This document shows positions 57,497-62,391 of a stretch of 64,000 bases of DNA, in pieces. The notes beneath the pieces are model-generated. The model was not told the origin of the DNA. It saw nothing but the letters and a program-made list of their open reading frames with translations, and made no database searches. The position numbers and the translations under genes were made by a program. Origin of the DNA: Rhabditophanes sp. KR3021 (taxonomy: Eukaryota; Nematoda; Chromadorea; Rhabditida; Alloionematidae). Position 1 is the first letter of the stretch. Each line of letters opens with the position of its first letter. Where the stretch lies: NCBI GenBank assembly GCA_963281155.1, contig CAUJLY010000001.1, forward strand, positions 1,550,001 through 1,614,000, written 5' to 3'.

Positions 57497-60400
57497 ATGG
57501 TGAAAAAGAACCAAGAATTAGATGACCTGAAACAGGAAGTCAAGATGGATGAACATCAAATCCCTCTTGCCGACCTGGTTACACGTTATGGATCTTCTAC
57601 CGAGGTTGGTCTTACCACCGCTAAAGCCGCTGAAGTCATGGCTCGTGATGGACCCAATGCATTGACCCCACCAAAGACCACTCCCGAATGGATCAAGTTC
57701 TGCAAGAATCTTTTCGGAGGGTTCGCTTTGTTACTTTGGGTTGGAGCTATTTTGTGTTACATCGCTTTCGGAGTAGATTACTTCACAATTGAACATCCTA
57801 CTAATGACAATCTGTATCTCGGAATTGTATTGATGTCCGTCGTCATCATCACTGGAGTTTTTCAATATTACCAGGAAAATAAGTAAGTTTACCCACCCCA
57901 ATCTTCAATCACTCACAACAGCCAAAAATGTACAAGAGAGACGTATTGTTCACACAATTTTAGTAACATATCTACATTGAGCAACTTAGACTGTTGTAAT
58001 TGACATTAACAACGAGCTTTATCAAAGCGTCTAAAGGTCTAGTAACTTCCCATTTATACTAGTCTTTTCGGCTCGAATAATAGCAGCCTTGTCCAGAGAG
58101 GTGGCTTTATAGCTTTTGCTTGTTTGAAGGTGGCAGCTAAGCATGTACATTTAAATAGGATTGCCAATTTTGAATTCCTAATAAATGCTTTGGAACCAAA
58201 TTGGTTAACTCTTCCATAAAAGGTTGGGAATAGTTTTATTTACTCCCAAAAACTAAATCTGCGAAGCCTGCTATTATTAGTATATAAAATGTTAGGTATA
58301 GTTTTATAAGGAACTGAATCCTAGTATCTTAAATAATAACATATAGTTTGGCCAGTTACCTAAATTTATCAAAAAGCTGAAACTTCAATTTTTTGAAATG
58401 ATATTAATGTTTCCATTTTATGTCTTCGAAGATCATGGAGTCTTTCAAGTCAATGGTCCCAACTTACGCCCTTGTGTTCAGAAACGGAGAAAAGATTCAA
58501 ATCAGGGCTGACCAACTTGTTGTCGGAGATGTCGTTGAGGTTAAAGGCGGAGACAGAGTCCCTGCTGATATCCGTGTCATTCAAGCTTTCGGATTCAAAG
58601 TCGATAACTCTTCTTTGACCGGAGAATCTGAACCACAGTCCAGAAACGGAGAATGCACCAACGAAAATCCCTTGGAGACCAAAAATCTCGCTTTCTTCTC
58701 TACCAACGCCGTCGAAGGAACCTGCAAAGGAATCGTCGTCTACACCGGAGACCGTACCGTCATGGGAAGAATCGCTCATTTGGCTTCTGGACTTGACACC
58801 GGCATGACCCCAATCGCCAAGGAAATCGAACATTTCATCCATTTGATCACTGGAGTCGCCGTATTCTTGGGAGTCACTTTCTTCATCATCGCCTTCGTCC
58901 TCGGATACCATTGGTTGACTGCCGTAGTCTTCCTTATCGGAATCATCGTCGCCAACGTCCCAGAAGGTTTGATCGCCACCGTGACGGTCTGTTTGACTTT
59001 GACTGCCAAGAGAATGGCCTCCAAGAATTGCTTGGTGAAGAACTTGGAAGCTGTAGAAACCCTCGGATCTACCTCCACCATCTGCAGTGACAAAACCGGA
59101 ACCTTGACCCAAAACAGAATGACAGTCGCCCACACCTGGTACGACCAAAAGATCGAGTCCTGTGACACCACCGAAGATCAATCTGCCTCCAAGAAGGAAG
59201 CTGCCGCCAAGTCCGACACTTTCTCATCTCTTGTTCGCGTCGCCACTCTCTGCAACAGAGCTGAATTCAAACCTAACCAAAAAGACGTCCCGATCCTGAG
59301 AAGAGACTGCACCGGAGATGCCTCCGAGATCGCCCTGTTGAAGTTCACCGAAATCATCAACGGAAACGTCGTCAAATACAGACAAGACAACAAGAAGGTC
59401 GCCGAAATTCCATTCAACTCCACCAACAAATTCCAAGTCTCTGTTCACGAAACGCAGGATGGAGATGACCGTTTCCTACTAGTCATGAAGGGAGCCCCAG
59501 AGAGAATCCTCGAAAAATGCGCCACCATCATGATCAACGGAGAAGAAAAGGCTCTCGATGAAAAACTCAGAGGGGAATTCGAAAATGCCTACCTTGAATT
59601 AGGAGGTATGGGAGAAAGAGTTCTCGGCTTCTGTGACTTCAGACTCGAAACCGCCAAATACCCCAAGAACTTCGTCTTCGACACCGAAGACCCCAACTTC
59701 ACCCTCGATGGACTTAGATTCGTCGGACTCATCTCCATGATCGATCCACCACGTGCCGCCGTCCCCAATGCCGTCGCCAAGTGCAGATCTGCTGGAATCA
59801 AGGTCGTCATGGTCACTGGAGACCACCAAATTACCGTAAGTTGAAACAGTAGATAGCATTGGTTAATGATAAAACAAAAATAAATGATATTGCTAAATAA
59901 CTATTTTACCTAGGCTAAAGCTATCGCTAAATCCGTAGGAATCATCTCGGAAGGAACTGAAACCGTCGAAGATATCGCCCTCAGAAGAGGATGCCAAGTC
60001 AAGGATGTCAACCCGAGAGACGCCAAGGCCGCCGTCGTCCACGGATCCGACTTGAGAGACATGACTGAAGATGAACTCGCCGATGTCATCTCCAACCACA
60101 CAGGTACGTTAGCCTACGCTCGCATTACTAATTAATTTCAGAAATCGTATTCGCCCGTACCTCCCCCCAACAGAAGCTGATGATCGTAGAAGGATTCCAA
60201 AAGCAAGGCCAAATCGTAGCCGTGACCGGAGATGGTGTCAACGACTCCCCAGCCCTGAAGAAAGCCGACATCGGTATCGCCATGGGAATCGCCGGGTCCG
60301 ACGTATCCAAGCAAGCCGCGGACATGATCCTGCTCGACGACAACTTCGCCTCCATCGTAGTAGGAGTCGAAGAAGGAAGACTCATCTTTGACAACCTCAA

Positions 60401-62391
60401 GAAGTCCATCGCGTACACCCTCACCAGTAACATCCCCGAGATCTCCCCCTTCCTGACCTACATCCTCTTCGGCATCCCACTCCCACTGGGCACAGTCACC
60501 ATCCTCTGCATCGACCTCGGAACCGACATGGTCCCCGCTATCTCACTCGCCTACGAAGAAGCCGAGTCTGACATCATGAAAAGAGCCCCAAGAGACTCCG
60601 AAAGAGACAAGCTCGTAAACGAAAGACTGATCTCGTTAGCTTACGGCCAAATCGGCATGATACAAGCTTCCGCCGGGTTCTTCACGTATTTCTGGATTAT
60701 GTATGTGCCCACGAGCTTTATTGCTACCAAAAATATTACGAAATATCGAAAAAATTAGAAATTTTTTAAAAACATCGAAATTCATACTAAATACTGCCAT
60801 TCGTAGCCCAGATAGGTCCTTCTTGACTGCGTTTAGGTGGTTGATTTGAGCCTTCGACAGTCCTTTGATTGTGACGGAGGTAGAGGGTGGGGCACTTCGT
60901 GATGCTCGGATAGACTTCAGGATACGCAGTCGAGTCCAGGCTAGCGAGCTTTATTGGAGATCCCTCGTTGTTCAACTGCGTGGCAGTGGTCACAAAATTA
61001 GGACATAAGACTTTTGAATGTGGGCATCTAGAACATTACATAAAGCTTTGCGGTATTAGACTTACCCAGGAGCGTAGACATTGATCAGTCTGGTGTCGTT
61101 GTAGTTTTCCTGAAATGGTCGTAAATGTGTATTGTTTGGTTTACTTACCGCAGTCAAAATAAGGACATTATCTTGAACAGTCACCTCGGTAGAATAGTTC
61201 GTGTATCTACGTACAAGTTATTGGCATAAGAATGTAGACGATTCTCACGCTGTGTCACCCACTCCAAGTTTGCAGCTCTGTTGTTCTGCACATCTCCATC
61301 TATGTGGCTCACACAGCAATGGTAGTCCGGAGCTTCTGTCACGGGTCTCCAGATTTCGCCATTTACTTTGTTGGGATCGGGAACATTGTGCGGTACAACT
61401 TTACCACACTACCGGAAAACCGAGTTTTCAGATCCTGATTGCGCATACTAGTAGGCCCGTTTTCATCAACCGTTAGGGTGAACTTTGGCTTCTTCCGCAT
61501 GACTGTCCCATGAGAACTAATTTGGTAGTTAGGGAAGCCTGGCACAGTCAGCCAATAAAGTAGTCGAGACAAATCAAGATTCAACTTACCTTCTCTGAAA
61601 TGCATGTGCCTCCTTCTGGATCAGGGAAGATCGATTCCCATAAGAGTTGGCGTACTCTGTAATCATTTACGGTGTTGTCATATTATTTGTATCCTTTATT
61701 AAAGCAGCAGTCGAAAATGGTTCAAAAGATAAATTAACCTTTAGAAAAAACTGAAAAAACATTTTACAAAAGTCTTTTAATTTATATTGATGATATTTAT
61801 TAATTGTATTATTTCTTTTTCAGGGCTGACAATGGATTCTTGCCATGGGATTTGGTACAAATCAGAGCCCAATGGGATTCAAGAGCCTTTAACAATGTCC
61901 AAGATTCATACGGACAAGAATGGACTTACGCCAACAGAAAAATCTTAGAATACACCTGCCAAACGGCTTATTTCGTCTCCATCGTTGTTGTGCAATGGGC
62001 TGATTTGATCATCTCCAAGACCAGAAGAAACTCCTTGGTCCAACAAGGAATGGGAAATTGGACTCTTAACTTCGGATTAGTCTTCGAAACTGCCCTTGCA
62101 GTATTTTTGTGCTACTGTCCCGGCCTCGACAAGGGATTGAGAATGTATGGATTAAGATTTTCATGGTGGTTCCCAGCACTTCCATTCTCCATCCTCATCT
62201 TCATTTACGACGAAGCCAGAAGATACTGCATCAGAAGATGGCCCGGCGGTTGGGTTGAGAGAAACGTAAATTTTTGCTTGTCTGCCATCTAACCTTCGTT
62301 TTATTTTCAGATATTACTAAAGGATTCGCCGAGATTATTCAGAATGGTTTTGTTTCAGTGCATTTCGTTTCGAATAAATATCTTGAAATAA
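57497..62391 (+). CDS. eat-6: Na+/K+-ATPase catalytic alpha subunit
   Basis: This P2C-type pump exports 3 Na+ and imports 2 K+ per ATP at the plasma membrane. Exons 57497-57882, 58422-59835, 59914-60103, 60142-60700 and 61824-62265 give 997 residues before the last exon, the normal family length. The TGES loop (SLTGESEP), the phosphorylated Asp in [11 protein letters not shown] near residue 352, [29 protein letters not shown] and the TM5-TM10 helices are all present. Codon use is strongly C-ending, as in highly expressed genes. Oddities are a first intron that does not end in AG at the position the protein needs, and a last splice that gives [10 protein letters not shown].. instead of the conserved Tyr-Tyr end. 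The 60701-61823 intron contains antisense coding sequence. Confidence 0.95.
60787..61189 (-). pseudogene. Degenerate PDI-type thioredoxin domain in the ATPase intron
   Basis: Three exons on the antisense strand (about 61149-61189, 61066-61109 and 60787-61027) join through 39-nt and 38-nt introns, both GTAAGT..AG. The product reads [17 protein letters not shown], then [19 protein letters not shown] and [17 protein letters not shown], ending [14 protein letters not shown]. This follows a protein-disulfide-isomerase a domain strand by strand. The active-site CGHC is CPHS, so one redox cysteine is lost. The C-terminal helix is replaced by unrelated sequence. No start codon is visible in frame. 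It is a relic or an inactive domain of a larger nested gene. Confidence 0.65.
61181..61605 (-). CDS. NUMOD4-HNH homing-endonuclease-like gene nested in the ATPase intron
   Basis: Antisense to the pump, the frame from the ATG at 61605 contains [20 protein letters not shown], which fits the NUMOD4 DNA-binding motif (W..VPGF.NYEIS..G.V). After a frame change the next frame (61411-61181) reads [20 protein letters not shown], then [20 protein letters not shown]. This is the H-N-H core: His in HIDGD, Asn in NNR, Asn in NLEW. A 50-nt GTATGC..AAAG intron at 61399-61448 would join the two frames; a frameshift is the alternative. An in-frame open stretch upstream of 61605 (to about 61680) lacks an ATG. 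Such modules are typical of phage and organelle homing nucleases. Whether this copy is intact or active is unknown. Confidence 0.6.

Follow-up and report, generated by a model that had tools for sequence, protein, structure and literature searches.

Results

An antisense NUMOD4/HNH segment in an intron of the Na+/K+-ATPase gene

The stretch of DNA analysed here (hereafter the window) comprises 64,000 nucleotides of a contig of Rhabditophanes sp. KR3021, a free-living nematode belonging to the Alloionematidae, and carries a Na+/K+-ATPase gene. On the opposite strand of one intron of this gene, a NUMOD4 motif is followed by an HNH_3 core, then by a thioredoxin/PDI-like domain and finally by the C-terminal end of a nuclease (Table 1). 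The HNH_3 match lies above its Pfam cut-off, that of NUMOD4 falls just below its own (21.3 versus 23.4 bits), and the thioredoxin/PDI-like domain also scores below its cut-off.

Table 1. Features of the Na+/K+-ATPase intron and its flanks, in window coordinates.
Feature	Position	Strand	Evidence and remarks
Na+/K+-ATPase gene intron	60701..61823	+	GT...AG, 1123 bp; the entire intron appears to be the mobile element
ATPase exon 5' of the intron	60142..60700	+	Cation_ATPase_C profile 1-74; exon prediction
ATPase exon 3' of the intron	61824..62265	+	Cation_ATPase_C profile 80-174; exon prediction
Noncoding conserved block, 5' end of the element, beside the host 3' splice site	61682..61798	-	76-80% identity to L047, L048, L049, L050 and L053; alignments
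Degenerate coding piece, perhaps the end of a first NUMOD4-like module	61581..61682	-	Open frame; similar piece in L068; module assigned by eye
NUMOD4 motif	61489..61554	-	Pfam PF07463, E 3.2e-4, residues 23-44 of frame 61363-61620
HNH_3 core, H..N..N	61238..61315	-	Pfam PF13392, E 4.6e-9, residues 32-57 of frame 61181-61408
Thioredoxin/PDI-like domain, CPHS	60847..61029	-	Pfam PF00085, E 7e-4
Last codons and stop of the nuclease gene (GYEWQYLV*)	60782..60808	-	Aligned with the ends of L045, L046 and L048
3' end of the element, conserved, reaching the host 5' splice site	60701..60823	-	Alignment; hidden Markov scan match 60740-60823

An initial annotation, made from the letters of the window, had proposed antisense NUMOD4 and HNH segments in this intron and suggested that they are either a captured homing element or a nested gene family. 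Both translations were recovered and matched in the Pfam profile search, and these matches, together with the antisense position in the ATPase intron, bear out a nested element of homing type. The claim that the HNH core has every key residue holds for the H and for the N at +12 and +21, but not for the residue preceding the H, which is S here and D in I-HmuI. Likewise, the surroundings are AT-rich as claimed (GC of 0.27 and 0.21 at the ends versus 0.45 in the middle), but they mostly match the ends of other copies of the element and not unrelated intron sequence.

Since the NUMOD4 and HNH parts lie in different frames, the window copy is broken. A second HNH module that is present in relatives such as L045 is absent from it. 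As judged by eye against intact relatives, the two parts seem to be what is left of separate modules in a multi-module protein, the intervening stretch having been deleted. Further upstream in the ATPase gene, at window positions 57883-58430, all GT-AG pairs in the small range tested for another intron break the frame, which could reflect a non-standard acceptor, a further exon or an error in the sequence.

A family of related loci throughout the genome

The genome, which spans 44.8 Mb in six contigs, yielded 15 matches to the intron DNA, 8 to the HNH peptide, 28 to Pfam HNH_3, 3 to Pfam NUMOD4 and 77 to a 466-aa member of the family; a search for NUMOD1 returned no match in the genome, and its control was silent too. 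Grouping of the matches by hand, with weak ones (E up to 0.01) counted, gave 69 loci, and addition of L067, L070 and the ATPase paralog L056 brought the family to about 72. Copies reside on all six contigs and show many degrees of divergence, and one of them is 98% identical over 90% to a public Rhabditophanes sp. KR3021 protein. Some are short and internally deleted (L067, 401 bp; L056, 439 bp). Contig C6, the largest (11.2 of 44.8 Mb), holds only one of the approximately 72 HNH loci, a strong shortage (binomial P = 6e-8).

In the best-kept copies, the ends of the element coincide with the splice sites

Read in the direction of the host gene, well-kept copies share a common start at the 5' splice site (GTTAGTTTAAAAAATATTTATTAAA...) and a common run into the 3' splice site (...AAATTACATCAATTTTATTTTCAG). 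In the ten pairs formed by five hand-chosen, best-kept copies, mean identity rises from 0.24-0.26 across the final 30 bases of the exon to 0.79-0.92 across intron bases 3 to 20, a stretch over which 600 pairs of control introns reach 0.28-0.34. On the donor side, 14 of the 21 pairs among seven copies gave alignments scoring at least 50; four begin at base 1 of both introns and eight between bases 3 and 39, the exceptions being one that begins 2 nt and one that begins 17 nt inside the exon. Acceptor-side alignments were obtained for 8 of 21 pairs and terminate from 1 nt inside the exon to 10 nt short of it, except on the L050 side (71-72 nt), where the end of the copy is tandemly repeated. These repeats at the 3' end of the element, host direction (L050:2230-2395), measure approximately 30-36 bp each. 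The introns of L048 and L050 lie in unrelated genes, a VWA-like gene and a PPTC7-like phosphatase gene, both named by eye with Pfam silent on L050; they are 84% identical over 844 aligned positions in a gapped, full-length alignment that includes 25-nt exon flanks.

With up to two mismatches allowed, 10 of the 25 element introns have the donor-end motif AATATTTATTAAA, versus 2 of 86 control introns and 1.8 in shuffles of the 25, an enrichment that is partly circular because the motif was taken from the same data; one of the two control introns bearing it contains a GIY-YIG-like piece (see below). None of the nine best-kept copies has a target duplication longer than 1 nt. In 16 older copies, in which the conserved ends are scarcely or not retained, junction matches reach 6 nt in L037, 4 nt in L023 and L031 and at most 3 nt in the others, and the longer ones may be due to chance or to likeness of splice sites. 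No target-site consensus was apparent by eye. All but one of the 25 tabulated introns are GT-AG (24 GT-AG, one GC-AG), which is a matter of consistency and not an independent test since GT or GC and AG were required when picking the junctions. Rfam models of group I and II introns had no match at gathering score in the window and seven further loci. There is good support for regarding these introns as copies of a single mobile unit, and element and intron are very probably one and the same.

Orientation and host genes

Host genes were sought at 48 of the 69 loci using a home-made exon finder that combines codon usage and splice-site weights on both strands. A nuclease was called antisense when exons scoring above 5 were found on both sides, on the strand opposite to it, and outscored those of the other strand. 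By this automatic test, 34 of the 48 loci have antisense host exons on both flanks; this number includes L025, L030, L034 and L085, whose flanks are not demonstrably one gene and, for L085, are apparently two. Inspection added L045, L048, L075 and L086, as well as L050, L018 and L083, for which the automatic call of sense was overruled by antisense host exons on both sides, for a total of 41 loci (the other seven being L013, L017, L027, L028, L032, L079 and L082). No case of a sense-nested nuclease was confirmed among the 48.

Twenty joined host proteins, picked from the recognisable ones, were scanned with Pfam, the remaining host gene names being assigned by eye. In 13 of the 20, a single domain spans the junction: S10 peptidase, DEAH-helicase OB fold, glutamate receptor channel, SepSecS, TMEM120, M14 peptidase, glycogen phosphorylase, metallophosphatase, ubiquitin-conjugating enzyme, myosin tail, DAGK_cat, C1 peptidase and ABC transporter. 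Three others have successive domains on either side, namely FERM (L031), Dynamin_N/DUF5600 (L049) and FMRP-type KH domains (L051), and for L042, L044, L050 and L083 Pfam was silent, one-sided or ambiguous. From this continuity of exons and domains, we infer that the element would be removed from host transcripts by the spliceosome. Not all copies appear to be introns, since L017 (C5:532271-535408), which has the most intact frame (466 aa), sits in no recognised intron and shows no host exons within approximately 0.9 kb on either side. Near L017, on the opposite strand, lies a frame that by eye resembles a Tc1-type transposase.

Occupied and empty sites in paralogous genes

The ATPase site is the only one found occupied in more than one gene: three paralogs on contig C1 carry the element (window, 1123 bp; L046, 861 bp; L056, 439 bp), while a paralog on C6 (75% identity) and another on C4 are contiguous there, without an intron. 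At the myosin site of L080, all five other myosin-like matches cross the junction ungapped in one open frame, and so do all six other matches at the ABC-transporter site of L067. With only 26-55% identity, these myosin and ABC paralogs are distant enough for intron loss to be possible in each; gain in the two host genes would be the simpler reading.

Between the window and L046, pS in the PDI region of the element is 0.72 over 62 codons and that of the flanking exons is 0.66 over 185. The similarity of the two values indicates that the ATPase element is probably older than the gene duplication. In the same region, L045 and L048 are nearer to L046 (pS of 0.40 over 83 codons and 0.50 over 33, respectively), and the L046 lineage of the element has probably spread since. 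As the element of L046 looks nearer to that of L045 than to that of the window, we also considered that the ATPase paralogs had each been re-homed separately; this was rejected, since the pS values are alike and duplication followed by spread of the L046 lineage suffices. The identical stretch beside the intron in the window and L046, approximately 25 nt, is too short for a claim of co-conversion.

The nuclease and its thioredoxin/PDI-like domain

Pfam identifies HNH_3, NUMOD4 and weak NUMOD1 domains in the nuclease family, with several modules per protein. Compared with the PDB, the 466-aa protein of L017 has a single match at E up to 0.1, 1u3e (E 9e-9), the homing endonuclease I-HmuI. In eight aligned copies, selected from those with a readable last module, H171, N183 and N192 are invariant (8/8) and agree with the aligned letters of 1u3e. 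For the last module, dN/dS has a median of 0.50 over 56 pairs and lies between 0.74 and 0.90 in the three youngest pairs, which show no clear selection at the tips. This pattern would seem to reflect decay of copies after insertion and constraint on the lineages that spread.

At least six copies have a PDI-like block fused next to their HNH modules (the window, at 60847-61217, and L041, L045, L046, L048 and L052). In L045, the thioredoxin domain scores above the Pfam cut-off (E 3.4e-5). The active site of PDI is CGHC; the blocks have CPNS or CPHS at this position, suggesting that the active site has probably been lost, the cysteine pair being apparently absent. Searches with the PDI-HNH piece and an alignment of copies returned no thioredoxin-domain protein among the matches listed.

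A second, GIY-YIG-like set

Another nuclease-like sequence (L052:3259-3651, minus strand) was found antisense within an intron whose host gene is SLC6-like by eye. It matches Pfam GIY-YIG just below the cut-off (E 4.5e-4), has a LEM-3-like match (E 0.003) and, with about half of the candidates scored, has at least 151 matching places in the genome; among the matches listed only two lie on contig C6, again a shortage. A relative of the L052 piece (L046:1704-1805, plus strand) lies antisense in another intron of the L046 ATPase gene, and these two introns, whose genes are unrelated, show homology that sets in at base 7-8. By eye, with Pfam silent, further pieces were recognised at L041:550-714, L045:3095-3573, L053:4035-4456 and L068:2-389 (all minus strand), so that one piece carries the Pfam support for the GIY-YIG assignment. 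Those of L041, L045 and L053 are antisense in predicted introns and that of L068 lies near phosphorylase exons; the intron ends there are too diverged for comparison. Judging from the few introns examined, this set may behave like the HNH set.

Discussion

Origin and spread of the element

The block in the ATPase intron is, in our judgement, likely to be one copy, old and decayed, of a mobile spliceosomal intron with an antisense nuclease gene of the I-HmuI type. The long residence suggested by the initial annotation agrees with the same-site element in three C1 ATPase paralogs, in two of which element and exon pS are alike. Its picture of a gene inside an ordinary intron had to be given up: the element is coextensive with the intron, copies of it make up introns of numerous unrelated genes, and the one in the window is a relic.

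In the mechanism that we propose, the unit would extend from the host 5' splice site to the host 3' splice site and carry on its opposite strand a multi-module NUMOD4/HNH/NUMOD1 nuclease gene of the I-HmuI type. Removal of the intron by the host spliceosome would make insertion into a coding exon nearly harmless, and because splice signals work one way only, the survivors would be those insertions in which the nuclease is antisense. The nuclease would nick or cut intron-less DNA and repair would copy the intron in, leading to homing into alleles and, rarely, into new genes. Inserted copies would then decay and leave plain introns.

We lean towards the nuclease as the driver of this spread, with some reserve. 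Alternatively, the introns could spread through RNA, by reverse splicing and reverse transcription, or as a DNA transposon, and take the nuclease along as a passenger. This alternative, which we hold to be rather unlikely, contests the driver only and not the identity of element and intron, and its probability overlaps with that of the favoured explanation. Reverse splicing would account equally well for the exact intron ends and missing target duplications of the best-kept copies, and the near-neutral dN/dS of the youngest copies and the existence of short, internally deleted copies such as L067 and L056 also speak for this alternative. However, the deeper dN/dS of about 0.5 and the invariant catalytic residues argue against a passenger, and the similar arrangement of the GIY-YIG-like set, of which few introns were examined, would have to be a coincidence.

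It is improbable that nuclease genes entered pre-existing introns and that antisense copies persisted because selection acts against premature polyadenylation or mis-splicing. Genes and transposons nested in introns often have an antisense bias, so that orientation is as this scenario predicts, and in L045, L050 and the window approximately 25-70 nt separate the element block from the 3' splice site. Yet the homology of well-kept copies runs from base 1 to between 1 nt inside and 10 nt before the 3' exon, which leaves no space for an older intron, and there are paralogs without an intron at the site. Finally, an assembly artefact or contamination, for which no evidence was found, is barely conceivable given the variously diverged copies on six of six contigs and the 98% match to a public Rhabditophanes protein.

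If the favoured reading is extended to both sets, the genome of this animal would harbour at least two families (HNH and GIY-YIG-like) of self-propagating spliceosomal introns, in which homing-type nucleases create introns genome-wide in conserved genes and old copies decay to ordinary introns. We advance this broader proposal tentatively and stop short of favouring it.

Comparison with known systems

Endonucleases of the NUMOD4-HNH-NUMOD1 type such as I-HmuI belong to phage group I introns. The Rhabditophanes nuclease resembles them in domain order and in the catalytic H-N-N, and differs by its multiple modules, the thioredoxin-like domain of some copies, its location in an animal genome and the fact that no group I ribozyme was found. 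We know of no natural nuclear homing elements described in animals. Known introners are short or derive from DNA transposons with target duplications. Unlike these, the Rhabditophanes copies carry a homing-type nuclease gene, and the nine best-kept are without the target-site duplication that marks DNA-transposon-type introners. They are like introners, as defined in PMC12768974, in being similar introns at non-homologous sites whose similarity stops at the exons. The words nematode, homing and endonuclease have no mention in the main text of a study of introners (PMC9860276).

The closest parallel is provided by the spliceosomal homing introns ('shintrons') of mirusviruses, which are spliceosomal introns containing HNH or GIY-YIG genes and, according to their description, apparently lack equivalents in eukaryotes (PMC12768974). 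As represented there, shintrons share with the Rhabditophanes elements GT-AG ends, the absence of a group I or II signature and an HNH or GIY-YIG-type gene within. In contrast to shintrons, which mainly occupy a few viral target genes (PMC12768974), our elements occur in dozens of unrelated hosts of an animal nuclear genome, are constantly antisense at the assigned loci and include a PDI-like fusion. The preference for few target genes is a reported tendency of shintrons and is not definitional (PMC12768974); in Rhabditophanes, hosts are many and unrelated. On the sequence features compared, the elements look like a eukaryotic equivalent of mirusvirus shintrons that has spread across many genes in the manner of introners.

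Group I introns of nuclear rDNA also harbour homing endonuclease genes in sense or antisense orientation (PMC9548176). The Rhabditophanes elements resemble them as nuclear introns with homing endonuclease genes, and depart from these self-splicing introns by residing in protein genes and by having no Rfam match. In the open PMC literature, which leaves most subscription papers and bioRxiv outside, we found no earlier report of nuclease-bearing Rhabditophanes introns, in keeping with the initial suggestion of a family without earlier description.

The origin of spliceosomal introns is a long-standing question, and the Rhabditophanes family points to a possible route of gain in animals. If our reading is correct, it would represent nuclease-driven intron gain in a cellular genome and supply a cellular counterpart to mirusvirus shintrons, and both intron gain and nuclear homing would become testable in a nematode whose copies differ widely in age. 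Exchange between viruses and animals, or a common source, would then arise as a question. In a quick tree of nuclease copies, which did not reveal the source of the family, 21 nematode copies cluster together with a support of 0.84, and L017, L076, L078 and L038 fall outside this cluster.
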